Shown piece by piece: positions 7,775 through 31,426 of a DNA stretch of 64,000 nucleotides. Each line of letters starts with the position of its first letter. Position 1 is the stretch's first letter. A program made the position numbers and the translations under genes. Below the pieces are notes generated by a model. That model was given only the letters and a program-made list of their open reading frames with translations, was not told the DNA's origin and ran no database searches. The stretch is from Nocardioides conyzicola (GTDB lineage: Bacteria > Actinomycetota > Actinomycetes > Propionibacteriales > Nocardioidaceae), in NCBI RefSeq assembly GCF_039543825.1, contig NZ_BAABKM010000002.1:900133-964132 (forward strand), read 5' to 3'.

Positions 7775-7800
7775 TGTATGAACGCTACCCAACGCCCCGG

Positions 7801-7844: not shown

Positions 7845-7857
7845 ACGATTATCGATG
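7845..7857 (-). promoter_or_regulatory. Shared operator site 1 (ATCGATAAT box) upstream of the CoA-transferase operon
   Basis: The minus strand reads CATCGATAATCGT, matching 11 of 13 positions of the box TATCGATAATCGA found upstream of the cyclase and alcohol dehydrogenase genes. It ends about 21 bases before the GTG start preferred for the CoA-transferase A gene. The spacing suits a repressor that blocks early transcription. Confidence 0.6.
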
Positions 7858-7878
7858 GCGCACCGTTCACTGGATGGC

Positions 7879-8646
7879 GTGGACAAGCTAGTAGCTTCGG
7901 CGGCGGAGGCCGTCGCCGACATCCCCAACGCGGCAACGCTGGCCGTCGGCGGCTTCGGGCTGTGCGGGATCCCATCCGTGCTCATCGAGGCGCTCCTTCA
8001 AGCAGGGCCGCACAGCCTGGAGGCAGTGTCCAACAACTGCGGCGTCGACGACTGGGGCCTGGGAAGGCTCCTCTCCGCCAAGCGCTTGCGCCGAATGGTG
8101 GCCTCCTACGTCGGCGAAAACAAGGAGTTCGAGCGTCAATACCTCCGCGGCGAGCTCGAGGTCGAGCTAACACCGCAGGGAACCCTCGCCGAGCGCATGC
8201 GAGCAGGCGGCTCCGGGATTCCGGCGTTCTTCACCGCCACCGGAGTCGGCACGCAGGTGGCCGACGGCGGCCTCCCTTGGCTCTACAACGTCGACGGTAG
8301 CGTCCGCATCGCCTCACCGGCCAAGCCAACCGAGTATTTCCATACGCCGGAGGGACCGAAGGAGTTCGTGCTGGAGAGGGCGATCGTCGCCGACTTTGGC
8401 CTCGTCCGCGCCTGGAAGGGCGACCGGCATGGCAATCTCGTCTTCCGGGAGTCGGCGCGAAACTTCAACCCTCTCGCCGCAATGTGCGGCCGAGTGACGA
8501 TCGCCGAGGTGGAAACTCTCGTCGAACCGGGCGAGATCGACCCGATGCAGGTGCACACCCCAGGCGTCTACGTGCAGCGCGTCGTCGCACTCACGCCTGC
8601 GCAGGCAGCCGACAAGCGTATCGAAAGGAGGACGGTACGGACATGA
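7879..8646 (+). CDS. scoA: 3-oxoacid CoA-transferase subunit A
   Basis: The A subunit of a family I CoA-transferase (succinyl-CoA:acetoacetate or 3-oxoadipate type), which moves CoA from an acyl-CoA to a 3-oxoacid. The N-terminus KLVASAAEAVADIPNAATLA leads to the glycine-rich oxyanion loop VGGFGLCGIPSVLI, then NNCGVDDWGLG and ARNFNPLAAMCG, all typical of the family. Homologues begin just before this point, so I prefer GTG 7879 (product 255 aa); ATG 7855 is the alternative but has no ribosome site and overlaps operator site 1. Its stop overlaps the start of a 47-codon frame that in turn overlaps the B subunit. A BKACE enzyme in the same apparent regulon releases acetoacetate, the likely substrate. 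Confidence 0.92.
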   Translation: MDKLVASAAEAVADIPNAATLAVGGFGLCGIPSVLIEALLQAGPHSLEAVSNNCGVDDWGLGRLLSAKRLRRMVASYVGENKEFERQYLRGELEVELTPQGTLAERMRAGGSGIPAFFTATGVGTQVADGGLPWLYNVDGSVRIASPAKPTEYFHTPEGPKEFVLERAIVADFGLVRAWKGDRHGNLVFRESARNFNPLAAMCGRVTIAEVETLVEPGEIDPMQVHTPGVYVQRVVALTPAQAADKRIERRTVRT

Positions 8647-8786
8647 GCCGAACCCGGGCCGTAAGTCCTCTCGACACGCGAGTGCAGCAGCCGCCTGGCG
8701 CTTCATTGGCTCACGCACCTGCCACAACTGACGCGCCTGGTGCGCTACCTGTCGAGATGCCGACCGCAGAGGGGGCCCAACGATGA
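8643..8786 (+). CDS. 47-aa small ORF coupled between the two CoA-transferase subunits
   Basis: The frame starts at ATG 8643, overlapping the A-subunit stop (ATGA), and ends at 8786, overlapping the B-subunit start (ATGA). The strong AAAGGAGG ribosome site near 8624 serves this ATG, not the B subunit, which is 140 bases away. The peptide ([20 protein letters not shown]...) is Pro/Ala-rich, has no membrane segment and matches no family I know. It may be a real small protein, a translational relay bringing ribosomes to subunit B, or both. In related operons the two subunit genes normally abut. Confidence 0.5.
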
Positions 8787-9445
8787 GTTGGAGTCGTGAA
8801 GAGATGGCGGCTCGAGCCGCAGCTGAACTGTCGGATGGGTCGTATGTCAACCTCGGCATCGGACTCCCCACGCTCGTGCCAAACTACGTGCCGCCGGACG
8901 TGGAGCTGGTCTTGCAGTCCGAGAACGGTATTCTCGGCTTCGGTCCCTACCCGTTCGAGGGGGAGGAAGACCCCGACCTGATCAATGCCGGCAAGGAAAC
9001 GGTCACGCTGCGGCCCGGCGCGTCCTTCTTTGACTCGGCCATGTCGTTCGGGATGATCCGCGGCGGAAAGATCGACGCCGCGATCCTAGGAGCGATGCAG
9101 GTCTCCAAGACAGGCGACATCGCTAACTGGATGATCCCCGGCAAGATGATCAAGGGGATGGGCGGTGCGATGGATCTCGTCCACGGAGCGAGGAAGGTCA
9201 TCGTGCTGATGGAGCACGTCGCTAAGGACGGGTCGTTCAAGATCGTCGAGGAGTGCAGCCTTCCCTACACCGGACGCCGTGTCGTCCAGCGAGTGATCAC
9301 AGACCTCGCCGTCATCGACGTTCACCCTGACGGACTGCATCTCGTTGAGCTTGCCCCCGACGTGAGCGAGGACGAGGTCCGAAGCAAGACTGAGCCGCCC
9401 CTGACGGTTGCGCTCGAAACACCTACACCGTCGCCGACGTACTGA
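8783..9445 (+). CDS. scoB: 3-oxoacid CoA-transferase subunit B
   Basis: A 220-aa B subunit of the same CoA-transferase. It carries the catalytic glutamate that forms the glutamyl-CoA thioester, in [11 protein letters not shown] near residue 50. Other family features are [13 protein letters not shown] near the N-terminus, [20 protein letters not shown] and [19 protein letters not shown]. The start ATGA overlaps the stop of the preceding 47-codon ORF. Together with subunit A it should activate acetoacetate or a related 3-oxoacid for thiolysis; a thiolase gene lies at 39.2 kb. Confidence 0.94.
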
Positions 9446-9617
9446 CCCGCAGTTCAGCCACATCAGCATCAGAGCCCGTCCCCGCGTCCACGCCCGCCGG
9501 TGCAATGGACGCTGGGACGCTTCAATGCCAATGGCTGTGGCCAGCACCATGGCCGCAGTGGGCAAGCGGGCCTAACTAAGGCTGTGGCGTTTCCCAAAGT
9601 GACGACGCTCACCGTAC

Positions 9618-9630
9618 TATCGATAATCGA
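9618..9630 (+). promoter_or_regulatory. Shared operator site 2 (TATCGATAATCGA) upstream of the cyclase operon
   Basis: An exact 13-base match to the site at 25920, 26 bases upstream of the cyclase ATG. Its core TATCGATA is a perfect palindrome in otherwise GC-rich DNA. Confidence 0.7.
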
Positions 9631-9656
9631 GTGCAGTCGCCAGAGAGGGGCAGACG

Positions 9657-10574
9657 ATGTCGTCAGCAATTAGCGAGAGCCAGCAGTCAAGCTACAGCGA
9701 AGTAGGACCTGCTGGTGTCCAGAGTCCGCACGAGGTCCTCGACGCCTTGCGCATGCCACAGAGCGGCCAGGTGTACTCGCTCGCCCTTCCTCGGTTCACC
9801 GGCATGCCGCTGTTCGGTGCGCACCCGCCATTCCAAGTGTCGATGTACCGGACCCCCAACGGTCTGCGGGGCGACGGCATCGAACCATGGGGACCGCACA
9901 ACGAGGTCAACCTGCAATACATGGCCGAGACCGTCAGCGGCACTGCGCACAGCGGCGCCCACGTCGACGCCCTGGCACACATGACCATCGGCGAAGACGA
10001 CCACTGGTACGGCGGCGGCAATGCCCGGGAGCATCTCGGCGACCGAGGCCCAACGGTCGGTGATGGCGCCAAGCTCCCCGTCTTCATCCGTCGCGGCGTT
10101 TTGCTCGACGTCCCCGGATTTCTCGGCGTCGACGCTCTGAACTCGCATCAGCCGGTCAATGCAGACGAGCTCCAGCGGGTCGCCGCGCACCAAGGCGTCA
10201 CAGTCCAGGCCGGCGACGTCGTGCTCATCCGGACCGGCTACCTCGGTGCGTGGCCCGACGCCGCCAAGATGGCAAACCACACGACGGCTGGCCCCGACAT
10301 CTCCGCCGCTCGCTGGCTACTGGATCAAGGCGTCGTCGCTACCGGAAGCGACACCGAGACCTATGAGGTACAGCCCGCACCAGACCGCGGCAGCCCTGCC
10401 AACCCGCAACCGGTGCACACACTCCTTCTCATCGAGAACGGCATCTACCTGTTCGAGGGCATCTACCTCGAGGAGCTGGCGCGGGACAAGACTTACGAGT
10501 TCCTGTTCATCGCCCTTCCTCTCAAGATCAACGGAACGACCGGGTCGATGCTCGACCCGGTGGCGATCGTCTGA
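9657..10574 (+). CDS. Cyclase family protein (kynurenine formamidase/isatin hydrolase-like metal hydrolase)
   Basis: A 305-aa member of the cyclase family (PF04199): metal-dependent amide, lactam or lactone hydrolases including bacterial kynurenine formamidase and isatin hydrolase. The metal motif is present as HSGAHVDALAHM near residue 100, followed by RRGVLLDVPGFLGVD and the later GDVVLIRTGYL. The ATG has an AGAGAGGGG ribosome site, and operator site 2 lies just upstream. Ten bases separate it from the carbonic-anhydrase-like gene, so it probably leads a three-gene operon. In the inferred pathway it would open a cyclic intermediate; the substrate is unknown. Confidence 0.88.
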   Translation: MSSAISESQQSSYSEVGPAGVQSPHEVLDALRMPQSGQVYSLALPRFTGMPLFGAHPPFQVSMYRTPNGLRGDGIEPWGPHNEVNLQYMAETVSGTAHSGAHVDALAHMTIGEDDHWYGGGNAREHLGDRGPTVGDGAKLPVFIRRGVLLDVPGFLGVDALNSHQPVNADELQRVAAHQGVTVQAGDVVLIRTGYLGAWPDAAKMANHTTAGPDISAARWLLDQGVVATGSDTETYEVQPAPDRGSPANPQPVHTLLLIENGIYLFEGIYLEELARDKTYEFLFIALPLKINGTTGSMLDPVAIV

Positions 10575-10583
10575 GGGCTCTCG

Positions 10584-11099
10584 ATGCGAATCGAACTTGG
10601 ACCCGCGGCCCCCACTTCCGATACGACGGCGTGGATTGCGCCTACGGCAGTCATCGCTGGGGCCGTCACGATCCAATCGGAGGCGAGTGTGTGGTTCGGT
10701 GCAGTACTTCGCGGTGACGGCGACGAGATCACGATCGGGTCAGGGACCAACGTTCAGGATGGCAGCATCATCCACGCTGACCCGAGCTACGCAGTAAAGG
10801 TTGGTCAGCAAGTCTCTGTCGGGCACGGGGCGGTCCTTCACGGATGCACGATCGGCGACAAGACACTCATCGGGATGCGCGCGGTTGTTCTCAACGGCGC
10901 CGTGATCGGCGAACAGTGCCTCGTGGCCGCGGGCTCTGTCGTGCTTGAAGGCTCGACCTTCGAGCCTCGAACGCTGATCGCAGGCGTGCCGGCCAAGGCA
11001 AGGCGTCCACTGACCGATGCGGAGTGCGCCGAAATCGAACGCAACGCGGAGAACTACCTGCGCCTCGCCGCCCGGTATAGGGATGCTGTCGAATCATGA
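10584..11099 (+). CDS. Gamma carbonic anhydrase family protein
   Basis: A 171-aa left-handed beta-helix protein built from hexapeptide repeats (IAPTAVIAGAVTIQSEASVW and onward). The three zinc-ligand histidines of gamma-class carbonic anhydrases appear in GSIIHAD, VGHGAVLHGC. Members act as carbonic anhydrases or as acyl-CoA-associated proteins (PaaY/CaiE-like), so the exact reaction is uncertain. Its stop overlaps the glycerate kinase start (ATGA at 11096), indicating coupling. A bicarbonate-supplying role next to PEP carboxylase (14.2 kb) is possible but speculative. Confidence 0.88.
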   Translation: MRIELGPAAPTSDTTAWIAPTAVIAGAVTIQSEASVWFGAVLRGDGDEITIGSGTNVQDGSIIHADPSYAVKVGQQVSVGHGAVLHGCTIGDKTLIGMRAVVLNGAVIGEQCLVAAGSVVLEGSTFEPRTLIAGVPAKARRPLTDAECAEIERNAENYLRLAARYRDAVES

Positions 11100-12340
11100 C
11101 CGCCACGTTTCGAGTGGTCCTCGCGCCCGACAAGTTCAAGGGCTCACTTCGCGCATCCGAGGTCGCCGACACGATATCCACCGTGTTGCAACACCTCGCT
11201 CCAAGCATCGAAGTCACCCGGCATCCCATCGCAGACGGAGGTGAGGGATCTGTCGAACTCGCGCTGTCTGCCGGCTTCGAGCCGATCTCCGTGCCGGTCA
11301 CCGGGCCGCTCGGCGCTGCGGTGGAGGCGATCTTCGCGCTGAAGGACCGCGTGGCTGTTCTCGAAATGGCATCTGCGGCCGGTCTGGGGCTGTTGCCTAG
11401 CGGCCCGAACAGCGACACGGCCTGGGACGCCACTACATACGGAGCTGGCGAGCTGATCTCCGCGGCTCTTGACCGTGGCGCAGCACGGATCATCATCGGT
11501 GCTGGCGGAAGTGCAACCACCGATGGAGGAATGGGGGCAGTGGAGGCACTCGGTGTTGACGTGCATGCACTGGGACAGCCCGCACACCGGGCCGACACTC
11601 AGCGAAACGGGCTGGACCCGCGACTGGCCGACGTCGACCTGATTGTCGCCTGCGATGTCGACAACCCGCTCGTGGGCCCCCATGGTGCGGCCCATGTCTA
11701 CGCGCCGCAGAAGGGCGCTGACGACGCGTGCGTCGCGCAGCTTGAGCTGCGCTTGGCGTGGTGGGCGGACGCGGTCGCGAAAGCCACCGGGGCGGATCTT
11801 CGCGATAGTCCAGGCGTCGGAGCAGCTGGTGGTTTCGCGTTCGGACTTGTTTCGCTTGCTGGTGCTCGGATTGTGTCGGGGGTCGAGATCCTGAGTGAGC
11901 TGACCGGCCTGAACGAGGTAGCGGCCAGAGCTGACCTTGTCGTCGTCGGGGAAGGTTCCTTGGACCAGCAGAGCCTGCGAGGCAAGGGACCGATCGGCGT
12001 TGCCCGTCTGGCGTCATCGCACGGTGTCCCGGTGGTCGCTGTGGCGGGCCGGAATCTTCTTTCCGAGTCCGAGTGGAGAGAGGCTGGCTTGCGTGCCGTC
12101 TACGTCCTCTCCGATATCGAGCCCGACCCGAAGGTCTGCATCGCAGACGCTCGCCGGCTCCTCGCTGAGCTCGCGGTCACGCTCGCCGACGACTGGCTGC
12201 CGGCTTTGACGCAGGACGCAGGGCGCTCCGCCCGCTCTCATGACGGAGACGGGTCGCACTCCAACCCAGATCCGCTGTCTCCGGATGAGTATCGGGAAGC
12301 GTTGCTAAGTACGGTCGTTCGTTCTGAGGAATCGGGCTGA
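11096..12340 (+). CDS. glxK: Glycerate kinase
   Basis: A 414-aa glycerate kinase of the GarK/GlxK family (PF02595), making phosphoglycerate from D-glycerate and ATP. Signature segments include LAPDKFKGSLRASEVADTI at the N-terminus, PIADGGEGSVE, IIIGAGGSATTDGGMGA, APQKGAD, GAAGGFAFGL and VVGEGSLDQQSLRGKGPIGV. The family is usually about 380 aa; here the last 40 residues (from about 372) form a polar, Asp/Ser-rich tail of unknown role. The ATGA overlap couples it to the carbonic anhydrase gene. It implies that the local pathway or a related one yields glycerate. Confidence 0.93.
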   Translation: MTATFRVVLAPDKFKGSLRASEVADTISTVLQHLAPSIEVTRHPIADGGEGSVELALSAGFEPISVPVTGPLGAAVEAIFALKDRVAVLEMASAAGLGLLPSGPNSDTAWDATTYGAGELISAALDRGAARIIIGAGGSATTDGGMGAVEALGVDVHALGQPAHRADTQRNGLDPRLADVDLIVACDVDNPLVGPHGAAHVYAPQKGADDACVAQLELRLAWWADAVAKATGADLRDSPGVGAAGGFAFGLVSLAGARIVSGVEILSELTGLNEVAARADLVVVGEGSLDQQSLRGKGPIGVARLASSHGVPVVAVAGRNLLSESEWREAGLRAVYVLSDIEPDPKVCIADARRLLAELAVTLADDWLPALTQDAGRSARSHDGDGSHSNPDPLSPDEYREALLSTVVRSEESG

Positions 12341-12686
12341 GCAACCAACCGCACAAAACCGGGCCCGCCGCCGTCCACTGACGAGCGACCGGCTTGGGGG
12401 CAGGGGCCGTGCCGGCGTCGGACCTTCGCTCCGCCGCAGTCCGAATGTTCCGTCAACATCCAAGAGGGTCGACGGATCGTCCATGTAGAAGCGTCGGCTC
12501 ATTTGTTGAGTCAAGAGGTGCACAGGTTGTGCCCTGTTACCTCCGAGACCGTCGCGCGCTGAACGCTGCCAACGCGAACCACAACACTCCAGAGCTGGCT
12601 CGCGGCAGTTTCAGCACCGACACCCCATGTGCGGCCCCGTGAGAACGAACTGATCGGGCGGGTCGCAGAGTGAAGGGAGCGATTGC
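12341..12686. other. Gene-free stretch upstream of the DHA2 exporter
   Basis: About 345 bases between same-strand genes, presumably holding the exporter promoter. No operator palindrome, ATCGATAAT box or credible small gene was seen. Confidence 0.45.
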
Positions 12687-16862: not shown

Positions 16863-17167
16863 GTCTCTCGATCTGTGTATGTGTCATGGGCGGCTACTGC
16901 CGGCAGACCATTCCGAGCGCGGTTGAGAGGCAGCTCGGTGCGCCTGTTCGTCGCAGATGACGGCTCGGCGCCCGTGCGACCGGCATATAGGGAGCCGCCC
17001 GGGACCGTTGCTACGCGGCGTAGCCGGCAGCCAGCAGCCAGCACCGTCGACGTCAGCACATGCCGACCGTGCCGAGCACCCAGAGGTGGACTGTGACCAT
17101 TTCGGTCACGCTGGATGGCTGGCACTTTGCGCCGGTGAGCGTCTTCCGGCAGAGGGATGACGCGCGG
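16863..17167. other. Gene-free stretch between ppc and the GntR gene
   Basis: About 300 bases upstream of ppc and downstream of the GntR gene, likely carrying the ppc promoter. No clear terminator hairpin or operator was identified. Confidence 0.45.
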
Positions 17168-17926
17168 TCAGGCGGCGCCGCCGCCCCCGGTGTCTCGGAG
17201 AAGTTCGGCTTGGAAGTGGTTCTCGAACAACGCGCTGACGTTGCGCTGATGCGTCCGTGCCGCGACGGCTGCCGAGACAGCATCACGACGTTCCAGGGCC
17301 TCGAGAATGGTCTGGTGCTCGGCGATGATCGACCCGATGTCTACTCGCGGCAGCGTCAAGGTAATGAACGTCCGCGCGAACGGCTCGAGTTGGTCGAAAA
17401 CGTGCTGAATGGCTTCGTTGGCGGAGGTGGTCGCGATGATGCGATGAAAACGCGCATCGGCCTGTGTCATGGCGACGAAATTCCGCTCGGCCTGATGGGC
17501 TTGCATCTCCTCGAACGTGGTACGCAGCTCAGCAAGGATCGACTCATCCATCAACGGGGAGGCAATGGTCGCTGCCAACGCATCCAGCTCGGACCGGACG
17601 AGACTGATGTCGGCCAGTTCCTTGCTGGTGGGTAGCCGCACCCGCGCCCCGCGACGAGAGTGGAAGGTCACGATGCCGATCGCAGCCAGGTCACGGAGCG
17701 CCTCTCGTACCGGAGACTGGCTCGTGCCCAACTCTTTGGCGACCTGGAGCTCGACGATGCGCTCTCCCGGCTTGTAGTGGCCGTGCATGATCCGATCGAG
17801 GAGCACCTTCTTCACCGACGTCGAAAGCAGCTCCCCACCAAACGGGACCGCGGGACTGCCTTCTTTCGTCACTGCGTTTCTCCTCAGACCTACTGACGTT
17901 TCCGGAGATCGTCTCACGCTTGCCAT
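17168..17926 (-). CDS. GntR family regulator, FadR/FCD subfamily
   Basis: A 252-aa regulator with an N-terminal winged HTH (about residues 30-95; LLDRIMHGHYKPGERIVELQ and SQSPVREALRDLAAIGIVTF). The C-terminal FCD domain has metal/ligand residues in QADARFHRIIA, IIAEHQTIL and ARTHQRN. These domains bind carboxylates. It is the last gene of the eight-gene minus-strand catabolic operon, 12 bases after the BKACE gene, so it is a candidate local sensor of a pathway acid. FadR-type operators usually resemble TNGTNNNACNA, which the ATCGATAAT box does not, so its own targets are open. Confidence 0.92.
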   Translation of the reverse strand: MASVRRSPETSVGLRRNAVTKEGSPAVPFGGELLSTSVKKVLLDRIMHGHYKPGERIVELQVAKELGTSQSPVREALRDLAAIGIVTFHSRRGARVRLPTSKELADISLVRSELDALAATIASPLMDESILAELRTTFEEMQAHQAERNFVAMTQADARFHRIIATTSANEAIQHVFDQLEPFARTFITLTLPRVDIGSIIAEHQTILEALERRDAVSAAVAARTHQRNVSALFENHFQAELLRDTGGGGAA

Positions 17927-17938
17927 CGCGGCTGGCCC

Positions 17939-18850: not shown

Positions 18851-18868
18851 GACTTCTCCTTGAGAGGT

Positions 18869-19522
18869 TCAGGAAGTCGCCGGTGCGACTTCGTCGATCA
18901 GTAGCGACTCGGCCGTGACCGTGAAGGCGTAGCCGTTGACGTACGGCGGCTCGCCTCCATCGGTGCCGCGCAGTCCCAGTCCGACCGATCGCAGCACTGG
19001 CGAATGAGTGATGGCGACGATGGTGCGGCCCCGCCACGCAGGCACGTCGTTCAAGCTGGCGGCGAAGGCAGCGATGCGTCGTTGCACCGATGCCGCGTCG
19101 TCGCCGGGCGGCGTCTTGTGCGCGACCCAGAACCCGACTCGTTCGGGATGGCGGAGCCATTCGTTGAAGAACGGTGCAGCGTCGACATCGGCGGGGGCCA
19201 GGTGGGCCGTCTGCTCGGCGAACGCCTCCGCGGTACTGACCATGGACACGCGATCACCTCCGAGGTAAAGGTCGGGGTTCCGCAGCGCAAACGAGTCCGC
19301 GACGTCTGGCCGTCGTGCTTCGGGGGCGTCCAGCCCGGCGACGACCGCCTCGGCGGTCTCGCGGGTTCGACGCGTGCCGCCGTAAAGGACAACTGCGACA
19401 TCGTGGCCGTTGTCGCGGATCCACTGACCCGCTCGGTGAGCCTGCTTGTGGCCGGTGTCGGTGATGGCGACGTCACCGCGGTGGCCGTCGACGTGAGCGT
19501 GCCTCAGGAGCAGCAGCTGCAC
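18869..19522 (-). CDS. Histidine phosphatase family protein
   Basis: A 217-aa phosphoglycerate-mutase-like phosphatase. The catalytic RHG motif appears as LLLLRHAHVDGHRGD with A in place of G. Further conserved points are LYGGTRRTRETAEAVV (active-site Arg) and the second catalytic His in VAITHSPVLRSV. The start is GTG 19522. It sits between the Tm-1-like and BKACE genes, which suggests a dephosphorylation or housecleaning step in the same pathway. The substrate is unknown. Confidence 0.85.
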   Translation of the reverse strand: MQLLLLRHAHVDGHRGDVAITDTGHKQAHRAGQWIRDNGHDVAVVLYGGTRRTRETAEAVVAGLDAPEARRPDVADSFALRNPDLYLGGDRVSMVSTAEAFAEQTAHLAPADVDAAPFFNEWLRHPERVGFWVAHKTPPGDDAASVQRRIAAFAASLNDVPAWRGRTIVAITHSPVLRSVGLGLRGTDGGEPPYVNGYAFTVTAESLLIDEVAPATS

Positions 19523-19591: not shown

Positions 19592-20860
19592 TCAGCTGAC
19601 CGACGCGGCCTGCTTGTTCTGTGCTGCAACCCACTGCTTCATGAACAGATCGAAGATTGCGTCGGCGAACGCCTCGTCGTTGATGTTGTTCGGCATCTCG
19701 AGGAGCTCGACGGACGGGTCCAGGTGCTTGCGGATCGCGTCGAAGAGGGCGGTCACGTCAACGTCGTGCCATTGGCTGCCCTGCTTGAAGTAGTTGTCGA
19801 GCCCGTTCAGGGGCAGGCCGACCGCCCTGGCCCCCGGCGCACGATTGACGTGGTCCGCGACGTACTCGCCCAGTTTCGCCAGCTCCTCGGGCGTGGCCAG
19901 GAGCGACGTGATGTTCGGGTTGTGGATCAGGACGTTGCGCTCCGGGACGTTGTACTCCGGCGGGATCGTGTCGACGGCGCCGAAGTTGAAGCACTCGATG
20001 GCACCAGGCACGACCACCTGCGGGATGCCCGTCCGCACGGCCGCTTCCATGCGCTCGCAGCCGGGATCGAAGATGCCGTGGTTCCAGTGGTTCAAGAGCT
20101 CGGCGAGCGTGAAGTCGATCAGACCGTCGATGGCGCCGTGGTCGATGAGGTGCTCCATGCCGGCGCCCTCGCCGACCGCGTGGAACGTGACGACCTCGAA
20201 ACCTTCGTCCTCGAGGCGGCTACGAACCCGCATGACACCGGGGGTGGTGACCCCGAACATCGAAATCGCGATAAGGGGCTTGCTCGCCTGGGCCTGCGTC
20301 TGCGTGTGCTGGCGGCCCTTTGCCATCCCGGCGACGGCGTGTGCGGCATTTCCAAGGACCAGCTTGGAGATGCTGTTGAGTCCAGCGATGTCCGTGACCG
20401 CGTTCGCCATCAGCATGTCCGAGTACCCGACGTAGGGGCGGGTGTTGTTCGACGCCATTGTGCTGACGATGAGCTTGGGGACTCCCATGCCGAGGTACTT
20501 GAATGCACCGCTAAGGAGGTCAGTGCCTCCGGTTCCTCCAAGTCCGATGACGGCGTCGATGCGGTCCTGTGCGACGAGCTCGTCAAGGACGATGCGCAGC
20601 CCTTCGCTCATCTTCGTGATCGCGAGCACGCGTCCTCCGGCGCCCTCGACGCCGGACTGGAAGTCGTCCAGGCTGATCCCGGCGCGCTCGGCGACCTGGG
20701 CCGCGTCGATGTCGGGGCGGAAGAAGGGGACCCCAAGGACGCCGCAATCGACGACGAAGACGTCGACTCCGGCGGCAATCAGGCAGTCCCGGACGTAGGC
20801 GTACTCGGCACCCTTGGTGTCCAGCGTGCCGGCGAGGCAAACAACGGGGTTGCGATCCAT
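19592..20860 (-). CDS. Tm-1-like ATP-binding protein (UPF0261)
   Basis: A 422-aa member of the family named after the tomato virus-resistance protein Tm-1, whose N-terminal domain binds ATP. Bacterial members have no settled function and occur in catabolic clusters. Recognisable parts are VVCLAGTLDTKGAEYAYVRD at the N-terminus, the glycine-rich AVIGLGGTGGTDLLSGAF and PKLIVSTMAS segments in the ATP domain, and the C-terminal FHAVGEGAGMEHLI region. ATG 20860 has a GGAG 6 bases upstream. A hairpin (20903-20923) separates it from the Mo-hydroxylase genes, so expression may differ from theirs. Confidence 0.9.
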   Translation of the reverse strand: MDRNPVVCLAGTLDTKGAEYAYVRDCLIAAGVDVFVVDCGVLGVPFFRPDIDAAQVAERAGISLDDFQSGVEGAGGRVLAITKMSEGLRIVLDELVAQDRIDAVIGLGGTGGTDLLSGAFKYLGMGVPKLIVSTMASNNTRPYVGYSDMLMANAVTDIAGLNSISKLVLGNAAHAVAGMAKGRQHTQTQAQASKPLIAISMFGVTTPGVMRVRSRLEDEGFEVVTFHAVGEGAGMEHLIDHGAIDGLIDFTLAELLNHWNHGIFDPGCERMEAAVRTGIPQVVVPGAIECFNFGAVDTIPPEYNVPERNVLIHNPNITSLLATPEELAKLGEYVADHVNRAPGARAVGLPLNGLDNYFKQGSQWHDVDVTALFDAIRKHLDPSVELLEMPNNINDEAFADAIFDLFMKQWVAAQNKQAASVS

Positions 20861-20902
20861 CTTGTTCTCCGATCAGGGTTTCTGATTTTGCGAATGCTTC
20901 GT

Positions 20903-20923
20903 AGAGGTGATGGGCTCACCTCT
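20903..20923 (-). terminator. Intra-operon hairpin between the Mo-hydroxylase and Tm-1-like genes
   Basis: AGAGGTGA-TGGGC-TCACCTCT is a perfect 8-bp stem with a 5-base loop in the 113-base gap. There is no T-run. It could be a partial terminator, an mRNA processing or stability element, or a regulator site. Confidence 0.5.
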
Positions 20924-20973
20924 GATGGCGTACTACTGAAAATCGGGGACGGTGTCGGTTGACCCGTCAGCCG

Positions 20974-24778: not shown

Positions 24779-24820
24779 CGAACAAACCTCCTCTCGCACG
24801 CTCAGACGGATGGGCCTCGG

Positions 24821-25876
24821 TCACGGATTGACGATGATCTTGATCGCGCCGCTGGCCCGGTCGTTGAAGGTCGCGAGGGCTTTGTCGTACTCCGACAGCG
24901 CGAAGTTGTGGGTGATCAGCTCCTTCGCGCGGATACGGCCGTTGGCCATAAAAGGCAGCACACGTCGCATTTCGCCAGCTGATGCGCGGGATCCCACAAG
25001 TTCGAGCTCGTCGAGAACGAGCGGCTGGCACTTGATGGCGACATCCTCGGTCGGGATCCCGACCATTGCGCATCGCCCGCCGCGTCGCAGCATGGCCATG
25101 GACCACTGGACGGTGAGAGGGGTACCAGCGCACTCGAGGACGACGTCGGCGCCAAGCCCGCCCGTGAGATTCCTGACTTCCTGGACCGGATCCCCCGCGT
25201 TCGTGTCGACCGTCTCGAAACCGAGGGTCGCGGCGCGGTCGAGCCGGTACCCACGGCCAACAACGATGACCCGTGCGGCGCCGCAAATCAGTGCTGAGTC
25301 GGCGGCGAGGAGTCCCACAGCGCCAGCACCGATGACAGCAACCGTGTCGCCGGCTTTGATATTGCCGCGGCGGGCAACGTGCAGCGCAATGCTGGCCGGG
25401 TCGGCGAGTGCGCCCTCGTCAAAGCTCATGCCTTCGGGCAGCTTGAAGATGCACTTCACATTGTGAACGGCGTAGGTGGCGTTGACGCCCTGGACGTTGT
25501 GCCCGTACTGCGAGTGGAGACCCGGCTTGCCGTAGTTCTCGCAGAGGTTGTACTGACCCTCAACACACTTCTGGCATGCGCCGCAAGCGTTGTGGCTAGT
25601 GCCGGCCACGCGGTCTCCGACATTCCAACCGAAGGTGTCCGCGCCCTCGCCGAGGGCCACGATCTCGCCCGCCCACTCATGGCCGGGAGTGAAGGGGAAG
25701 CCCAGTGGCCAGAATCCCGGGTAGTCACCATTGATGAGGTGTGCATCGGTACCGCAGATGGAGACGGAGCGCACGCGGGCAAGAACCTCGTTGCGACGGG
25801 GCTCCGGGACGGGCAGGTCGGCGATGTCAAGGACCTTCGGCTCTCGAACGACCAGGGCCTGCATCATTTGCGTCAT
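24821..25876 (-). CDS. Zinc-dependent alcohol dehydrogenase (MDR superfamily)
   Basis: A 351-aa medium-chain dehydrogenase. Catalytic zinc ligands are in SICGTDAHL and PGHEWAGE; the structural zinc site is the four-cysteine CGACQKCVEGQYNLC lobe. The Rossmann motif is VIGAGAVGLLAADSALICGA. It resembles sorbitol, threonine or polyol dehydrogenases and would produce an aldehyde or ketone for the adjacent Mo-hydroxylase. It is the first gene of the eight-gene operon, with operator site 3 some 44 bases upstream of ATG 25876 and little ribosome site. The substrate is unknown. Confidence 0.94.
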   Translation of the reverse strand: MTQMMQALVVREPKVLDIADLPVPEPRRNEVLARVRSVSICGTDAHLINGDYPGFWPLGFPFTPGHEWAGEIVALGEGADTFGWNVGDRVAGTSHNACGACQKCVEGQYNLCENYGKPGLHSQYGHNVQGVNATYAVHNVKCIFKLPEGMSFDEGALADPASIALHVARRGNIKAGDTVAVIGAGAVGLLAADSALICGAARVIVVGRGYRLDRAATLGFETVDTNAGDPVQEVRNLTGGLGADVVLECAGTPLTVQWSMAMLRRGGRCAMVGIPTEDVAIKCQPLVLDELELVGSRASAGEMRRVLPFMANGRIRAKELITHNFALSEYDKALATFNDRASGAIKIIVNP

Positions 25877-25919
25877 GTCTCACTCAATTCCACGTCGGGC
25901 CGCACCAGGAGCAGCGCTC

Positions 25920-25932
25920 TATCGATAATCGA
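25920..25932 (+). promoter_or_regulatory. Shared operator site 3 (TATCGATAATCGA) upstream of the alcohol dehydrogenase operon
   Basis: Identical over 13 bases to the site at 9618. It sits 44 bases upstream of the ADH start, in the plus orientation relative to a minus-strand gene; the palindromic TATCGATA core makes orientation less important. Confidence 0.7.
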
Positions 25933-26497
25933 AGGTAATCGCCGTCACACTGTGCGTCAAGACACAACGCGGTTATTTCGGCTGATGGCGCGCCCGGACC
26001 CGGCGGCCGGTCGCCCAGGAGAATCCGCCGCGGGCTGAGTCCGGCCATCGGCGCTCCTCTGTCGATGGCACGACGCACGAAGGCGGGCGGATCGACCGCA
26101 AGACAGCCTGAACCGGCCTTATGCGCGCGCTTCGACTTATTGCCGGCGGTTGTCGAGGCTGTGGCGTACTGGTGTCGCATACTCCGCCGGACCGCTCAGG
26201 CACGAACGACGAGCGCGTCGCCGTGCTGGCTCACGCAACAGGAGGCTGCACTCTTGCCATGACTGCCGCCGCGGTCCGTTAGCAGACATGAGGGATACGT
26301 GACACGCCTTACCGCCGCCACCCGCACCAGCAGTTCTGGGGCTTGCTGGCTCGAGAGGATGTAACGCCGGCTCCGACCCCCGTAGCTGCTGCTCGGAGCC
26401 GGCGTTAGATTCGTGGAACCGAGAAGGCGACCGCACTAGTCCCGAGTTGGTATGTGCTCTTCTCGGAAGCGAACCTGCTGTGGCGGTTCCGCTGTCG
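25933..26497. other. Intergenic region between the Liv operon end and the ADH operon promoter
   Basis: About 565 bases. It holds the long inverted repeat at 26362-26407, listed separately, and presumably the ADH operon promoter next to operator site 3. No credible gene was seen; the open frames are shadow-like. Confidence 0.5.
26362..26407 (-). terminator. Perfect 15-bp inverted repeat, likely terminator of the Liv operon
   Basis: The left arm TAACGCCGGCTCCGA (26362-26376) and right arm TCGGAGCCGGCGTTA (26393-26407) pair perfectly around a 16-base loop, about 90 bases after the livF stop. No T-run follows, as is common in GC-rich actinobacteria. This is the longest perfect non-coding stem I noticed in the window. 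Confidence 0.7.
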
Positions 26498-27256
26498 CTA
26501 CCGCGGATGGCTCTGGGCGCTGCCCAATTCCAAATGTTCGGCGTCGTCGACGCCGATCCCGAGATACCGACGCTGTAGCACCGGGTCATCGCGGAGCTGG
26601 GCAGAGGTGAGTTTGGCGACCACCCGACCGTTGGCGATCACAACGAGATTGTCGGCGATTGCTGTTGCAGCAGCCAGGTTCTGCTCGACAACGAGAAGGT
26701 TCATTCCCTCGTCCGCCAACGTTTGGCACGCCCCAACAACCTGCTCAACGACGATCGGCGCAAGACCTTCCGACGGTTCATCCATGACAAGCAACTTGGG
26801 CTGCGTCAACAACGCTCGACCGATGGCGAGCATCTGCTGCTCGCCACCTGACAAGGACGTCCCCTTCGTCTTCTTCCGCTCCGCCAATCGGGGAAACAGA
26901 CTGAAGACACGCGCCTGCGTCCACGGACCACGACGCTCTGCCACCCGCAGCGTCTCCTCGACGTTCAGCGATGAAAACAACCTCCGGCCCTGCGGCACGT
27001 AGGCCACGCCCAACCGGGAGCGCCGGTACGCCGGCAGCTGAGCGATCTGCCGACCAAAGACCGAAATGGAACCGTCAACCCGGCCACGACCGCTCAGAAC
27101 ACCGGTGATGGACTCGCACAACGTGGTCTTGCCCATGCCGTTGCGCCCGACGATCCCAAGGCGTCCACTCGCCAGGTCGAGGTCCAGGTCCTGAAGCACG
27201 TGGGCTGACCCTCGCCAGCCCTGAAGTCCACGGATCTCGAGCGCATTCTCAGACAT
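26498..27256 (-). CDS. livF: Branched-chain amino acid-type ABC transporter ATP-binding protein (LivF)
   Basis: A 252-aa ATPase of the HAAT importer family. Walker A is GRNGMGKTTLCESI, the signature motif is TSLSGGEQQMLAIGRALL, Walker B is KLLVMDEPSEGLAP and the switch His is in VVEQNL as Gln/Asn, typical of LivF. I chose ATG 27256 (MSENALEIRG), which has GGGAG upstream and overlaps the livG stop by 8 bases; an upstream in-frame start at 27286 lies deep inside livG. It is the last gene of the five-gene importer operon. Confidence 0.94.
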   Translation of the reverse strand: MSENALEIRGLQGWRGSAHVLQDLDLDLASGRLGIVGRNGMGKTTLCESITGVLSGRGRVDGSISVFGRQIAQLPAYRRSRLGVAYVPQGRRLFSSLNVEETLRVAERRGPWTQARVFSLFPRLAERKKTKGTSLSGGEQQMLAIGRALLTQPKLLVMDEPSEGLAPIVVEQVVGACQTLADEGMNLLVVEQNLAAATAIADNLVVIANGRVVAKLTSAQLRDDPVLQRRYLGIGVDDAEHLELGSAQSHPR

Positions 27257-28001
27257 GAGCACTCCCGAGGTAGATGTCGTGGACAAGCTGGCTGTCGCTC
27301 GCCTCGCCAGGAGTGCCGTTAAACATGACCGTGCCGTCGACCATCACCGTGACTGAATCTGCGACCGCCAGCGCAACGTTCATGTCGTGCTCGATCAGCA
27401 GCAGAGTGAGGTCCTCGTCAAGTTCGTCCAGCAATTCTGTCAACATGACGCGCTCCGAAGGTGATAGGCCCGCGGCCGGCTCGTCAAGGATGAGCAGCCG
27501 GGGCTCCGAGGCGAGTGCCATCGCCAGCTCCAACTGTCTCTTGCCGCCGTGTGAAAGCGCGTCCGCGAGCATCCCGCACTGGTTGGCGAGCCCGACACGA
27601 TGAGCGAGCTCTCTCGCGCGTTCGCGTCGAGCGCGCGTTGCTCGACCGCCAGGAAACGGGCGCCAGCGACCACCGTGAGCACCGGCTAACGCGAGCATGA
27701 GGTTCTGCTGCACATTCAGCCCGGCGAACAGCTTCGATTCCTGGTAGGTGCGAGCAAGACCTCGCCCAACACGGCGCCGGCCGCTCTCCCGGGTGACGTC
27801 GACGCCGAAGACGTCGATCTCGCCCGAACTCGGCGGGACCACACCGGAAATGAGGTTGACCAGCGTGGTCTTGCCTGCCCCGTTGGGCCCGAGGAGGGCA
27901 CGCTTGGTGCCCACCTCGAGCCGCAGGTCAACGTCGTGGACGGCGACCAGGCCACCGAAGCGTCGGGTAACGCTGCGCAGTTCGAGTGCGGGTGTCGACA
28001 T
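27249..28001 (-). CDS. livG: Branched-chain amino acid-type ABC transporter ATP-binding protein (LivG)
   Basis: A 250-aa ATPase paired with LivF. Walker A is LLGPNGAGKTTLVNLIS, the signature region is DALSHGGKRQLELAMAL (His in place of the second Ser/Gly of LSGG), and Walker B is RLLILDEPAAGLSP, with switch His in LLIEHDMNV. The extra central helices (GRRRVGRGLARTYQESKLF) are typical of LivG. The start GTGATG overlaps the binding-protein stop. The operon order is livH-livM-binding protein-livG-livF. Confidence 0.93.
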   Translation of the reverse strand: MSTPALELRSVTRRFGGLVAVHDVDLRLEVGTKRALLGPNGAGKTTLVNLISGVVPPSSGEIDVFGVDVTRESGRRRVGRGLARTYQESKLFAGLNVQQNLMLALAGAHGGRWRPFPGGRATRARRERARELAHRVGLANQCGMLADALSHGGKRQLELAMALASEPRLLILDEPAAGLSPSERVMLTELLDELDEDLTLLLIEHDMNVALAVADSVTVMVDGTVMFNGTPGEASDSQLVHDIYLGSAHV

Positions 28002-29344
28002 CACGGGCAGCTGGGGTGATCGCGGTCGTTGGCCGGCTGGTCGACGTACTCGGCGCGGTCCATACCGAGGGTCTGGTTGACGTCGGGGATCGTCTTGATC
28101 ATCTTCGACGCGCCGTCGGTGACCTGGAAGATGTAGTTGTTGGCGATGGCCTGACGGTTCTCGTCGAGCTTGACAGGCCCGGACGGACTCACGACCTGCA
28201 TCCCGGAGAGCGTCTCGTTGAGGGCCTTGTGCCCGTCCTCGAGCTTGCCTCCGATCGTGTTGAGCGCATCGAGCGTCGCCTTCATCTCGGTGTAGTAGCC
28301 GACGTCGAACAGTCCGGGCGGCGCAGCGTTGGGGAACAGCTTCGTGAGCTGGGCTGCATAGGCCTTGTACTCAGGGGTGTCGAGCTCAGCGACCGGACCG
28401 GCCGAAACGATGCCTTCGGCCCGCTCGCCGAGTCCCTTGACGACCGAGCCGTCGACCGCGATCGATCCGCCGAGGATCGGCTTGCCCGCCAGCGGAGACT
28501 GGTCGATCTGCTTAGTGAAGTTCAGAACATCCGCTCCGCCGAGCGCCACGAGGATCGCATCGACGTCCGTCGGCATCGTCGCGATGAAGGAAGAGAAGTC
28601 CTTCGTACCCAGCGGAACCCAGATCTTGTCCGGGACCTGCCCGCCGGCGGCACAGTACTGGGTCATGAACCCGCCAACCTGGTCGTAAGGAAAGGAATAG
28701 TCCTCGCCGAGCGTGACGACCTTCTTGTATCCGAGGTCCGTGAACGCGTAGTCACCGAGGCCGGCCATCCACTGAGCGCCGTCGGTAGTGAACCGGAAGA
28801 AGTTCGGCGCCGGGTCACGCAGTGTCGTGTTCTGGGCACCGGAGGTGCCGTTGACGAACGTGGTGTCGAGGTGTTGCTTGGCGTAGTCCTTGACGGCCAG
28901 ACCCTCGTCGCCCGAAAGCGGTCCGACGACCACGTCCACGTCGTCCTTTTCGACCAGTCTCTGCGTGGCCGCGAGCGCTGCGTCCGGAGTGGCGTCGGAG
29001 GACTCGACGACGAGCTCGACCTTCTGCCCTCCGATCGTAAGGTCCTTGATGCCGTTGCGGTCACCGGTGCCATCCAGGGTCGCTCCCGCGTCGACGAGCG
29101 CGACCTTTGCCCCCATGTTGGCGGCCTGGCCGAGGGCGGCGTAAGGCCCGTCGAGCGTGGAGAGCAGCCCAATCTTGATGACGCCGTCACCGGCGGCCTT
29201 GCTGTCCTTCTGCGCTGAGCCAGCGATGCCGCCTCCGGTCGAACTGGACCCGTCTGACGAGCTACTACAGGCAGCGACGGCGAGGGTGGACAGAAGAAGC
29301 AGCGTTGCAGAGGCTGCCCGGGTCGTGGTGCGTGAACGGGTCAT
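28001..29344 (-). CDS. Extracellular substrate-binding lipoprotein of the Liv-type importer
   Basis: A 447-aa solute-binding protein of the Peripla_BP_6 family. The N-terminus is a lipoprotein signal peptide with lipobox LAVAAC, followed by a Ser/Gly linker. The mature part starts with VIKIGLLSTLDGPYAALGQA, as in receptors for branched-chain amino acids, amides, aromatic acids or polyols. It decides substrate choice for the importer. It is larger than LivK (about 370 aa), like many actinobacterial catabolic receptors. The ligand is likely the growth substrate of the linked pathway; that is inference from shared operators. Confidence 0.92.
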   Translation of the reverse strand: MTRSRTTTRAASATLLLLSTLAVAACSSSSDGSSSTGGGIAGSAQKDSKAAGDGVIKIGLLSTLDGPYAALGQAANMGAKVALVDAGATLDGTGDRNGIKDLTIGGQKVELVVESSDATPDAALAATQRLVEKDDVDVVVGPLSGDEGLAVKDYAKQHLDTTFVNGTSGAQNTTLRDPAPNFFRFTTDGAQWMAGLGDYAFTDLGYKKVVTLGEDYSFPYDQVGGFMTQYCAAGGQVPDKIWVPLGTKDFSSFIATMPTDVDAILVALGGADVLNFTKQIDQSPLAGKPILGGSIAVDGSVVKGLGERAEGIVSAGPVAELDTPEYKAYAAQLTKLFPNAAPPGLFDVGYYTEMKATLDALNTIGGKLEDGHKALNETLSGMQVVSPSGPVKLDENRQAIANNYIFQVTDGASKMIKTIPDVNQTLGMDRAEYVDQPANDRDHPSCP

Positions 29345-30411
29345 CAGTGGTTCTCCTGTTGCGTTGGTGAGGCGGAAACTGGCGTCGACGCGGGGGCACG
29401 CAGGCGTCGAAGGCCCGAGATGGAGGTGGCGACGAGGCCGGGGACGCCGTTGGGCGAGACCAGGACGACGCCCATGAACACGAGGCCGATCACGGTGAGG
29501 TAGTGGTCCGTGTAGTCACTGAGGTAGACGGTCATGATGCTGAGAAGGAGGGCTCCCAGCCAGGCCCCTTCGAGGCGCGCGACGCCGCCGAGCACGACGA
29601 TGATCAGAATGTCGATCGTCCGGGTGATGTCGAGCGAACCGGGTGAGACCTGGCCGTTGAACCAGACCGAGATGACTCCGCCGATTGCGGCAACGACTCC
29701 CGCGACCGTGAATCCGACGACGCGGACCAGGGTGGGGTTCATGCCGAGGGCACGTGCGCGGTCGGGTGAGTCCCGGTCTGCTTGAAGTGCGAGGCCGAGC
29801 GGCGAGTGAGCGAACCCGTACAGCGCCAGGAGACAGACCACCGCGGTGCCCAGCGCGAACCAGTAAAAGTTGTGCGGGTCTGACAGGGACACCGACCCGA
29901 TGGAGGGGGGCGCGACCCCGTTGATGCCGCTGAAGCCGTACGTGAAGGGGCGGTACTGGAGCGCGAAGTAGTAGATGAAGACGCCGACAGCCAAGGTGAG
30001 CATCAAGAAGTAGACGGCTCGCGCACGTGCAGCCAACGCGCCAACAGCGAACGCGAGCGCGACCGCCACAGAGATGCCCACACCAGCTGCAGCCCACTGG
30101 TTGACGCCCCGGGTGACCGACAGGTTCGCGGTGACGTACGCGGCGACGCCATAGATGCCCGTTTGCGCCAAGGAGATCATGCCGGCGTACCGGATGAGGA
30201 ACGTCAGGCTAACCGCAACGGTGCCGAGCCACAGCGATCGGATAAGGATCTGCACGAAGAAGTAGGGAGTCAGGACGTACGGCGCGGCGACCAATGCGAT
30301 CGCCACAACGGCGATCGCGGCCACGGCCGCGAGCCGATGCCGTCCCAATCCCGCGAGACGCACTGCATCGGTCGTGCCCATCAGGCTGGCTCTGCGGTCG
30401 ACGGCGCTCAC
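29344..30411 (-). CDS. livM: Branched-chain amino acid-type ABC transporter permease (LivM)
   Basis: A 355-aa membrane protein with about nine to ten hydrophobic segments (GRHRLAAVAAIAVVAIALVA at the start). It has the family signature GINGVAPPSIG and the cytoplasmic EAA-like ALQADRDSPDRARALGMNPT. The start GTG 30411 overlaps the livH stop (GTGA), and its stop overlaps the binding-protein start (TGATG). Confidence 0.92.
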   Translation of the reverse strand: MSAVDRRASLMGTTDAVRLAGLGRHRLAAVAAIAVVAIALVAAPYVLTPYFFVQILIRSLWLGTVAVSLTFLIRYAGMISLAQTGIYGVAAYVTANLSVTRGVNQWAAAGVGISVAVALAFAVGALAARARAVYFLMLTLAVGVFIYYFALQYRPFTYGFSGINGVAPPSIGSVSLSDPHNFYWFALGTAVVCLLALYGFAHSPLGLALQADRDSPDRARALGMNPTLVRVVGFTVAGVVAAIGGVISVWFNGQVSPGSLDITRTIDILIIVVLGGVARLEGAWLGALLLSIMTVYLSDYTDHYLTVIGLVFMGVVLVSPNGVPGLVATSISGLRRLRAPASTPVSASPTQQENH

Positions 30412-31391
30412 TGGACGCCGCCGAACAGACCCTGCGGACGGAAGGCCAGCACGACGATCATCACGGCAAACGTGACGAGCACCGAGTACGTCGGAAGATG
30501 CACCTGAGCGAAGGCCTCAACGAGCCCGACGAGCAGAGCTCCTGCTGCTGCACCTGGAACACTTCCCAGGCCGCCCACAATGACGACGAGCAGCGAGATC
30601 AGCAGGTAACGGGCATCCTCGCCCTGCGAAATCGATAGGTAGGAACCTCCAGCAACTCCAGCAACTCCAGCGAGTAGGGCACCTAGGCCGAACACGAGAC
30701 TGAGCAGAAAGGGGACGTTCACTCCGGTGGTAGCGAGGATGGCGGGGTCATCCACACCTGCACGAATCGTCATCCCGAGTCGGGTGCGCTGCAGCAGGAC
30801 GTACAGGCCGGCTCCGATCAGGAGCGCGAACCCCACTAGGGCGATCCTGTACTGGGAGTACACCAGAGTGCCGACGTGGATCGAGGAATCGAGTACTGAC
30901 GGCGCACCGATGTCGAGGGCTGTGCCGCCCCACACCGAGAGGGTCACGTCAGCGACCACGACGGTGAGGCCGATGGTGAGGAGCGACTCACGGATGGGAT
31001 CGCTGGCGACGCGCCGCAGCAGGAGCACCTGAAAGACCAACCCCATCGCGCCCACGGCCAGGCCCGCGCCGGCAAGGGCCAGCAGCCAACTTCCGATCGC
31101 CTCGTGGATCGAATAGCCGATGTAGCCGCCTGCGAGGTAGAAGCTGCCGTGGGCCAGGTTGGTGACGCGCAGCAGCCCGAAGATGAGGGTGAATCCGCTG
31201 GCGACGATGAAGTAGAGCGCCGCCGAGCTCACTCCGTTGAGCACTGTGCTCACGAACAGCAACGGATTGCTTGCTAGATCGCGGCCGCAGAAGGCGGCCA
31301 AAGAGATGGCGGCGGCGACCGCAAGCATCTGCTGCGCACTGACTCGCGCCCTGGGAGGGCTACGCCTCACCACCGGTTCCAACACTGCCAC
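30408..31391 (-). CDS. livH: Branched-chain amino acid-type ABC transporter permease (LivH)
   Basis: A 327-aa permease, first gene of the importer operon. It has family segments NGVSSAALYFIVASGFTLIF and GLLRVTNLAHGSFYLAGGYI at TM2-TM3, and RTRLGMTIRAGVDDPAILAT at the EAA loop. The frame is open to an ATG at 31454, but I place the start at GTG 31391: GAGGAG lies 6 bases upstream. The longer form would put operator site 4 inside codons 9-14 and add a non-family leader. Regulation by the protein that binds the ATCGATAAT boxes is likely. Confidence 0.92.
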   Translation of the reverse strand: MAVLEPVVRRSPPRARVSAQQMLAVAAAISLAAFCGRDLASNPLLFVSTVLNGVSSAALYFIVASGFTLIFGLLRVTNLAHGSFYLAGGYIGYSIHEAIGSWLLALAGAGLAVGAMGLVFQVLLLRRVASDPIRESLLTIGLTVVVADVTLSVWGGTALDIGAPSVLDSSIHVGTLVYSQYRIALVGFALLIGAGLYVLLQRTRLGMTIRAGVDDPAILATTGVNVPFLLSLVFGLGALLAGVAGVAGGSYLSISQGEDARYLLISLLVVIVGGLGSVPGAAAGALLVGLVEAFAQVHLPTYSVLVTFAVMIVVLAFRPQGLFGGVQ

Positions 31392-31413
31392 GTCGTGCTC
31401 CTCGATAACCGCT

Positions 31414-31426
31414 AATCGATAATTGT
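31414..31426 (+). promoter_or_regulatory. Shared operator site 4 (ATCGATAAT core) upstream of the Liv importer operon
   Basis: The core ATCGATAAT at 31415-31423 matches the other three sites; 10 of 13 positions fit the extended box. On the minus strand the region reads as two direct TTATCGA half-sites 16 bases apart, the second running into the ribosome site. It lies about 24 bases upstream of the start proposed for livH. Confidence 0.55.

Follow-up and report, generated by a model that had tools for sequence, protein, structure and literature searches.

A short palindromic box recurs ahead of several operons in a 64,000-nucleotide stretch of Nocardioides conyzicola DNA (assembly GCF_039543825.1, contig NZ_BAABKM010000002.1, positions 900,133 to 964,132 of the forward strand), referred to below as the window; positions are counted from its first letter, and negative positions lie before it. 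We predict, with a probability of roughly 0.87, that this box is the operator of an FCD-type GntR regulator encoded in the window (17168-17872, minus strand), which would repress catabolic and uptake operons. The box, its rarity genome-wide, its conservation, its co-occurrence with GntR and its position relative to promoter-like sequences are established. Judged from these comparisons, it very probably marks a real, conserved regulon of an ordinary kind. A first-pass annotation of the window had proposed a promoter box defining a regulon, a claim that is strongly supported here, and had named both an IclR and a GntR protein as candidate regulators; our analysis narrows the regulator to GntR and redefines the operator.

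A rare box confined to one region of the genome

The whole genome (4,961,273 bases in seven contigs) contains just four copies of the nine-base form ATCGATAAT, and every one is inside the window: at 7848-7856 on the minus strand and at 9619-9627, 25921-25929 and 31415-31423 on the plus strand. These are the four places reported by the first-pass annotation, which had noticed no other copy by eye and expected well under one chance occurrence per 64 kb; 100 dinucleotide-preserving shuffles yielded a mean of 0.06 copies and a maximum of one. The four copies span 23.6 kb of the 4.96-Mb genome. They precede a CoA-transferase (site S1), a cyclase operon (S2), an operon running from an alcohol dehydrogenase (ADH) gene to gntR (S3) and a five-gene Liv/Urt-type ABC transporter (S4).

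Definition of the box and ranking of sites

Conservation is highest for an 11-bp palindrome, TCGATWATCGA. Exact copies are found at four places genome-wide, within 53 kb (-9755, 9620, 25922 and 43150), and 20 places match with at most one mismatch; the 16 one-mismatch places comprise 14 copies of TCGATSATCGA scattered over the genome, one TCGCTAATCGA and site S1 at 7845. The palindromic core proposed earlier was TATCGATA. We compared the two forms within 220 nt of the start of ADH and cyclase genes, a test in which the sites were not selected by pattern and which omits the ADH of L059 as well as L054 and L055, in which cyclase and ADH stand behind other genes. The exact TCGATWATCGA was present in nine of nine ADH and seven of ten cyclase upstream regions, the window contributing one to each set, and TATCGATA in five of nine and five of ten, respectively; the outer T that TATCGATA requires is present in 9 of the 23 exact sites of relatives. 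TATCGATA was set aside as the dyad, being kept less often than TCGATWATCGA in orthologous upstream regions. This choice is not final, since three-unit sites in some relatives, for example TAGATTATCGATAATCTA, hold both axes.

For ranking, we used a 21-bp matrix (22.6 bits) built from 48 sites with at most one mismatch in the clusters of relatives (seven loci, L053-L059, and five genomes). Window sites were excluded and one site inside an XdhA gene was dropped, overlapping boxes were counted separately, and the matrix was made symmetrical by counting both strands. Applied to the window and 20 kb on either side, it gave nine top scores of 27.8 (-9755), 27.4 (9620), 25.9 (25922), 20.9 (31409), 15.3 (7845), 15.3 (994), 14.6 (31402), 11.6 (31416) and 11.5 (43150), the tenth being 7.9. 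The maximum in 138,896 bases of negative DNA was 12.3; this set consisted of L009, L011-L019 and L023-L051, of which L009 and L011-L019 had themselves been chosen for near-matches. We accepted the sites at 994, 7845, 9620, 25922 and -9755 and the triple site at 31402-31426. The four sites of the first-pass annotation stand, and the weaker one at 994-1004 was missing from its list. Boxes in the window are as follows.

994..1004: weak box (ACGATTAACGA, with two mismatches), flanked by an ssu-type operon and a divergent TetR-type gene; matrix score 15.3
7845..7855: box S1 (ACGATTATCGA, one mismatch), CoA-transferase promoter; matrix score 15.3
9620..9630: box S2, an exact copy ahead of the cyclase operon; matrix score 27.4
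25922..25932: box S3, also exact, ahead of the ADH-Xdh-UPF0261-BKACE-GntR operon; matrix score 25.9
31402..31426: box S4, overlapping degenerate boxes (two mismatches each), livH; scores 14.6, 20.9 and 11.6 at 31402, 31409 and 31416
43150..43160: exact TCGATTATCGA inside an HxlR coding sequence (PF01638); matrix score 11.5

The copy at 43150 was set aside as a regulon site, as its score with flanks falls within the range of the negatives, and it is probably a chance match outside the regulon. Its position only 17 kb from S3, in a genome with just four exact copies, stays odd. The top-scoring box of the region, at -9755 (L020:10245-10255), lies 9.8 kb before the window between a MarR gene (about 190 bp away) and a GH3 glycosidase gene (about 270 bp away, leaving a leader).

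Co-occurrence of the box with GntR

At a threshold of E at most 1e-40, GntR orthologs were found in six of the 294 genomes of the family, and all six hold exact boxes (four in N. conyzicola, G000; five in G012; two in G206; three in G249; one in G279; three in G288), whereas at least one exact box is present in 25 of the 288 GntR-negative genomes (Fisher p 8.6e-7, uncorrected for relatedness). The remaining 263 of the 294 genomes have no exact box. Of the 18 exact boxes in GntR-positive genomes, 17, the window's 43150 copy included, have a gntR copy no more than about 27 kb away, the exception being G012 C3:1267318.

A similar pattern was seen around the gene for the beta-keto acid cleavage enzyme (BKACE), which belongs to the S3 operon. 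Among the best 80 of 407 confirmed BKACE loci on genome contigs, seven carry a GntR of at least 50% identity and all seven have exact boxes; the 73 loci without such a GntR have a box in one case (L056, a 3.3-kb contig with the box ahead of a gene that is LivH-like by eye). This sample overlaps with the family genomes at least at L052 and G249, which share sequence. In L095 (Actinomycetospora), BKACE and a cyclase of 73% identity occur without such a GntR, and no box was found.

More distant homologs of the regulator are accompanied by the box as well. A class-wide draw of 394 genomes contained, besides the window's own, two genomes with a GntR homolog below 1e-35 (G333 and G350, 39-40% identity, another family), both with an exact box and with TTGATTATCGATAATCAA near it. 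Within that family the homolog is present in 4 of 22 genomes, and L180, L183 and L185 have exact boxes. A Rhodobacteraceae contig (L100) encodes a 38-41% homolog and has three one-mismatch boxes; one lies inside the regulator gene, and the other two are upstream of this gene and of an ADH gene, respectively. In another family, L181 (7846-7961) and L182 (3853-3968) combine a 38-40% homolog and boxes near fumarylacetoacetate hydrolase-like and MBL-fold genes, with a malate-synthase-like gene nearby (names by eye).

In an alignment, 19 box-associated regulators share SQ[SAN]P[VI]REA[LV] and a GAR[VM]R wing, and the Pseudomonas deoxyribonate-type GntR, paired with GTGATCAC, has SPMPVREAL instead; this difference is a lead on specificity only. 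Sequence searches against solved structures found only distant or uncharacterized relatives for GntR and the cyclase, and DUF849/cleavage enzymes for BKACE.

Predicted target operons and promoter geometry

The genes downstream of boxes S1 to S4 are listed below; the S3 operon is a single-strand run of ADH, XdhB, XdhC, XdhA, UPF0261, histidine-phosphatase-like, BKACE and GntR genes.

7879..9445, plus strand: CoA-transferase subunits A (GTG 7879) and B; TIGR02429 and TIGR02428 above cut-off
9657..12340, plus strand: cyclase-family hydrolase, gamma carbonic anhydrase-like protein and glycerate kinase; PF04199, and TIGR00045 above cut-off
17168..17872, minus strand: GntR/FCD regulator (g029), last gene of the S3 operon; PF00392 55.2 bits, PF07729 69.1 bits
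17939..18850, minus strand: BKACE (g030); NF053538 457.8 bits, cut-off 430
18869..19522, minus strand: histidine-phosphatase-like protein; family matches below cut-off only
19592..20860, minus strand: UPF0261 (Tm-1-like) protein; PF06792 and PF23189
20974..24778, minus strand: molybdenum hydroxylase subunits of XdhA, XdhC and XdhB type; xanthine/glyceraldehyde dehydrogenase families, below equivalog cut-offs
24821..25876, minus strand: zinc ADH, first gene of the S3 operon; PF08240 and PF00107
26498..31391, minus strand: branched-chain/urea-type ABC transporter (LivH, M, K, G, F); family matches

The start of CoA-transferase subunit A was placed from the ATGGACAAGGTG conserved in relatives, and the gamma carbonic anhydrase-like protein matches NF050158 with 162.7 bits, under the cut-off of 250. 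The boxes end 23 nt (S1 to GTG 7879), 26 nt (S2 to the cyclase start), 45 nt (S3 to ATG 25876) and 10 nt (S4 to GTG 31391) from the gene starts; the earlier claim of 20-45 bases is therefore correct for three of the four and too long for livH.

Relative to promoter-like elements, which are sequence readings and not mapped starts, S1 overlaps the TTGAC (-35-like, 7842-7846) of the CoA-transferase promoter, a sequence that recurs in 29 of the 30 intergenic regions extracted between IclR and CoA-transferase, and S2 includes GATAAT 17 nt after GTGACG. S3 directly abuts the downstream end of TTGACG-17-TACCTT, a layout resembled by the ADH promoters of G206 and L053, and S4 lies between the livH promoter (TTGACG-18-TACGTT) and GTG 31391. 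Unlike these four, the weak site at 994 is upstream of the TTGACC/TACATT pair of its operon. The geometry of S1 to S4 would suit a repressor: since the boxes overlap or abut promoter-like elements, we infer repression by occlusion.

Alternative explanations

The most serious rival reading was that the box is bound by the IclR protein encoded divergently from S1, which would then control all four operons. The relevant features are:

7016..7774, minus strand: IclR protein (g022), conserved partner of the CoA-transferase
7769..7783: GTTCATTGTATGAAC, the window form of GTYCAYNNNRYGRAC, over the IclR start codon

This reading had to be taken seriously because the box equals the core of the operator of PcaR and PcaU, which are IclR-type regulators: the PcaR consensus WWWRKTCGATWATCGSAYRRW as printed (PMC8222616 Table 1; PMC12455658) contains the identical TCGATWATCG. 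Moreover, g022 scores 84.6 bits against the PcaR/PcaU/PobR model (below the cut-off of 284.75), and among GntR-negative family genomes a box is present somewhere in 13 of 96 with IclR vs 12 of 192 without it (p 0.046). In those 13, box and IclR share a contig in seven (nearest about 48 kb apart) and are on different contigs in six. IclR orthologs occur in 98 of the 294 family genomes, and we analyzed the best 30 of 99 matched places with 1.5-kb flanks, the window's among them. IclR is divergent from CoA-transferase in all 30, yet no box, exact or with one mismatch, was found in any of the 29 loci of relatives, and a different palindrome, GTYCAYNNNRYGRAC, covers the IclR start in 28 of the 30. 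GTTCATTGTATGAAC and GTYCAYNNNRYGRAC are close to TGTYCRYW3RYGRACA, published for a subgroup, and the window copy is probably an autoregulatory operator of IclR itself. No IclR match was obtained by tblastn at 1e-4 in the examined stretches of box-bearing BKACE loci and GntR-positive genomes; G279 holds both IclR-CoA-transferase and GntR, and its IclR locus (L038) has no box. With the box missing near the IclR genes of these 29 relatives and another palindrome at the IclR start, we rejected IclR as the box regulator and consider this reading very unlikely. The PcaR/PcaU proteins belong to another family, and here the box tracks GntR, not IclR, across genomes.

It is likewise improbable that GntR merely travels with the pathway and the box belongs to some other regulator, such as TetR (1017), HxlR (42870), the MarR near -9755 or one encoded elsewhere. 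The strongest site does lie between the MarR and glycosidase genes, and a second GntR paralog (36-38% identity) accompanies the cluster in G012, G249, G288 and L053. But in the stretches examined for IclR, tblastn at 1e-4 found no match of the window's MarR and TetR and a single match of HxlR (29%, in G206); the second paralog was not detected in the examined stretches of L054, L055, L057-L059, G206 and G279; and GntR homologs at 38-40% have the box in a different gene neighborhood. A simpler explanation, to which we give almost no weight, is an accident of composition or shared -10 sequence, given that the box contains GATAAT/GATTAT, resembling a -10 element, and that at S2 this sequence is suitably spaced from GTGACG. 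Against it, the only four 9-mers of a 4.96-Mb genome fall within 23.6 kb, most family genomes lack the exact box, and the box follows a separate -10-like element at S3 and at S4 and overlaps the -35-like one at S1.

As to the module with the second GntR paralog (36%), two overlapping one-mismatch boxes form TAGATTATCGATAATC(T/C)A in it at G012 C3:828072, G249 C6:76634 and G288 C2:1257433, downstream of LivG/LivF-like genes.

Several observations weigh against assignment of the box to GntR. No clear target gene could be assigned to the strong site at -9755, stray boxes occur in the 25 GntR-negative genomes, and L056 has a box and no GntR on its short contig. Conversely, L184 encodes a GntR homolog (66% identical to that of L180) with no box, even at one mismatch, in the surrounding 1.5 kb, and the regions upstream of the cyclase in G279 and L058 likewise hold no box at up to one mismatch. 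The relatives are not independent, so that the Fisher value overstates certainty, and the matrix, made from sites selected by pattern and symmetrized, ranks sites and cannot itself prove the dyad. Finally, the box coincides with the core of the PcaR/PcaU operator and, with A and T in place of T and A at positions four and eight, departs from the consensus of the FadR subfamily of GntR regulators (see below).

Conservation and a possible promoter capture

The first-pass annotation had named absence of the box from orthologous promoters as evidence against a regulon. In GntR-bearing clusters most ADH and cyclase orthologs retain the box upstream, while among the 30 loci of CoA-transferase paired with IclR it is present in the window's copy only. 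CoA-transferase genes are inside the box-bearing cluster in G206 and L059 and stand with IclR in the window. The window's CoA-transferase promoter seems to have gained a box, which would be a case of regulatory capture.

Proposed mechanism and pathway

GntR binding, the inducer and the substrate, like the sign of regulation, are proposals. A GntR dimer would bind TCGA-TWA-TCGA, in many cases together with another half-site at a distance of 7 bp. The bound sites would coincide with the promoters of the CoA-transferase, cyclase, ADH-to-GntR and transporter operons or follow them closely, and the dimer would block RNA polymerase. The regulator would also repress itself, its gene being the final one of the ADH operon. 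An acid intermediate or the pathway substrate, bound by the FCD domain, would release GntR. The operons could then provide one route: uptake by the Liv ABC transporter, oxidation by the molybdenum hydroxylase and ADH, hydrolysis by the cyclase-family enzyme, beta-keto acid cleavage with acetyl-CoA by BKACE, CoA transfer from or to acetoacetate by the CoA-transferase, and glycerate kinase.

BKACE, a molybdenum dehydrogenase and glycerate kinase are together in one neighborhood, which is repeated in several relatives. The gene set resembles the oxidative deoxyribonate pathway, with the same kinds of step and partly different enzyme families. As outlined by Price et al. (PMC6365646), deoxyribose is oxidized to a 3-keto acid, for which cleavage by BKACE to acetoacetate and glyceryl-CoA was proposed, and glycerate kinase is part of the route. 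Shared with this Pseudomonas simiae pathway are a molybdenum-dependent dehydrogenase, a cleavage enzyme, glycerate kinase, acetoacetate activation and a GntR-type regulator; by contrast, the cleavage-enzyme operon here has a zinc ADH instead of an SDR, and there are a cyclase-family hydrolase, a UPF0261 protein and an ABC transporter instead of an MFS one. SDR genes are found at 5897-6667 and in the cluster of G206. The regulator is only 22% identical to the Pseudomonas deoxyribonate-type GntR, and the operators differ: in the Pseudomonas loci L109 and L131, GTGATCAC lies 47 and 46 nt before a gntR, after which come an SDR-like gene and the gene of a cleavage enzyme sharing about 62% identity with g030 (L109, which shares the layout of the P. 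simiae locus, also has a lactonase-like gene; names except BKACE by eye). In the window GTGATCAC occurs three times (9293, 51998 and 52681), never beside gntR.

A phloroglucinol-like route was also considered and fits less well than the deoxyribonate-type one. The Clostridium scatologenes pathway described in PMC10470551 likewise combines a cyclase-family retro-Claisen hydrolase, a BKACE-family triacetate lyase and a CoA-transferase; it gives the molybdenum hydroxylase and glycerate kinase no evident role, and phloroglucinol is a weak candidate substrate because both would be idle. Phloroglucinol reductase is an SDR, and SDR genes lie near the window's cluster. The name of NF053538 (3,5-dioxohexanoate) does not decide the substrate, since the L109 Pseudomonas enzyme also scores above its cut-off.

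Neighboring genes

The operon behind the weak site at 994 contains ssu-type ABC transporter, Cox/Xdh-type molybdenum hydroxylase and amidohydrolase genes (ssuB and CoxM were scanned, the amidohydrolase has no NCBIfam match, and the remaining names were given by eye), and in L059 an exact box precedes the related operon. AhpC, AhpF (named by eye) and SDR genes at 3604-6667 stand in the same order beside the cluster in G206 and perhaps handle peroxide from the molybdenum hydroxylase; the matrix scan found no site scoring above 7.9 ahead of them. On the other side (43438-54271), a TrwC-type relaxase gene adjoins the HxlR/NAD-binding gene pair and is followed by Tad-pilus-like genes (T2SSE, T2SSF and TadE at 50328-54271), so the catabolic region looks as if it abuts a mobile or conjugative element.

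Relation to known regulators and meaning

The regulator resembles the FadR (FCD) subfamily of GntR proteins, as presented in PMC4494728, in its PF00392 helix-turn-helix and PF07729 FCD domains and in being encoded inside the operon it would control. For this subfamily that source gives the operator consensus TKGT-N3-ACMA, extra half-sites 7-12 nt away are known for GntR, and members that depart from the consensus are named. The box, too, is an 11-bp palindrome, its T-G and C-A are spaced alike, and extra half-sites lie nearby; it differs in its half-site (TCGA, not TKGT) and in the overlapping of boxes 7 bp apart; the main text of PMC4494728 contains no TCGA letters. Among the open-licence papers listed for TCGATAATCG, TCGATTATCGA or longer forms, no title or abstract beginning presents the sequence as a GntR operator, and none of the open-licence papers listed for the gene cluster concerns it.

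Taken together, the data allow a broader reading, which we put forward tentatively, as somewhat less than an even chance. A distinct FCD GntR branch (Nocardioides, Modestobacter, Streptomyces and Acidimicrobiales, more weakly Rhodobacteraceae) would read ATCGAT arrays spaced by 7 bp, having converged on the core operator of the unrelated IclR regulators PcaR and PcaU; here it would have captured an IclR-paired CoA-transferase promoter through a new box over the -35 element, and its regulon would run an undescribed actinobacterial oxidative route ending in acetoacetate and glycerate. As regulators of two unrelated families seem to use TCGATWATCG as their operator core, the motif alone does not name its regulator. 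With a predicted regulator, operator and target set now assigned to the gene cluster, the substrate can be sought through the inducer, and comparison of close relatives offers a way to trace the putative promoter capture base by base.

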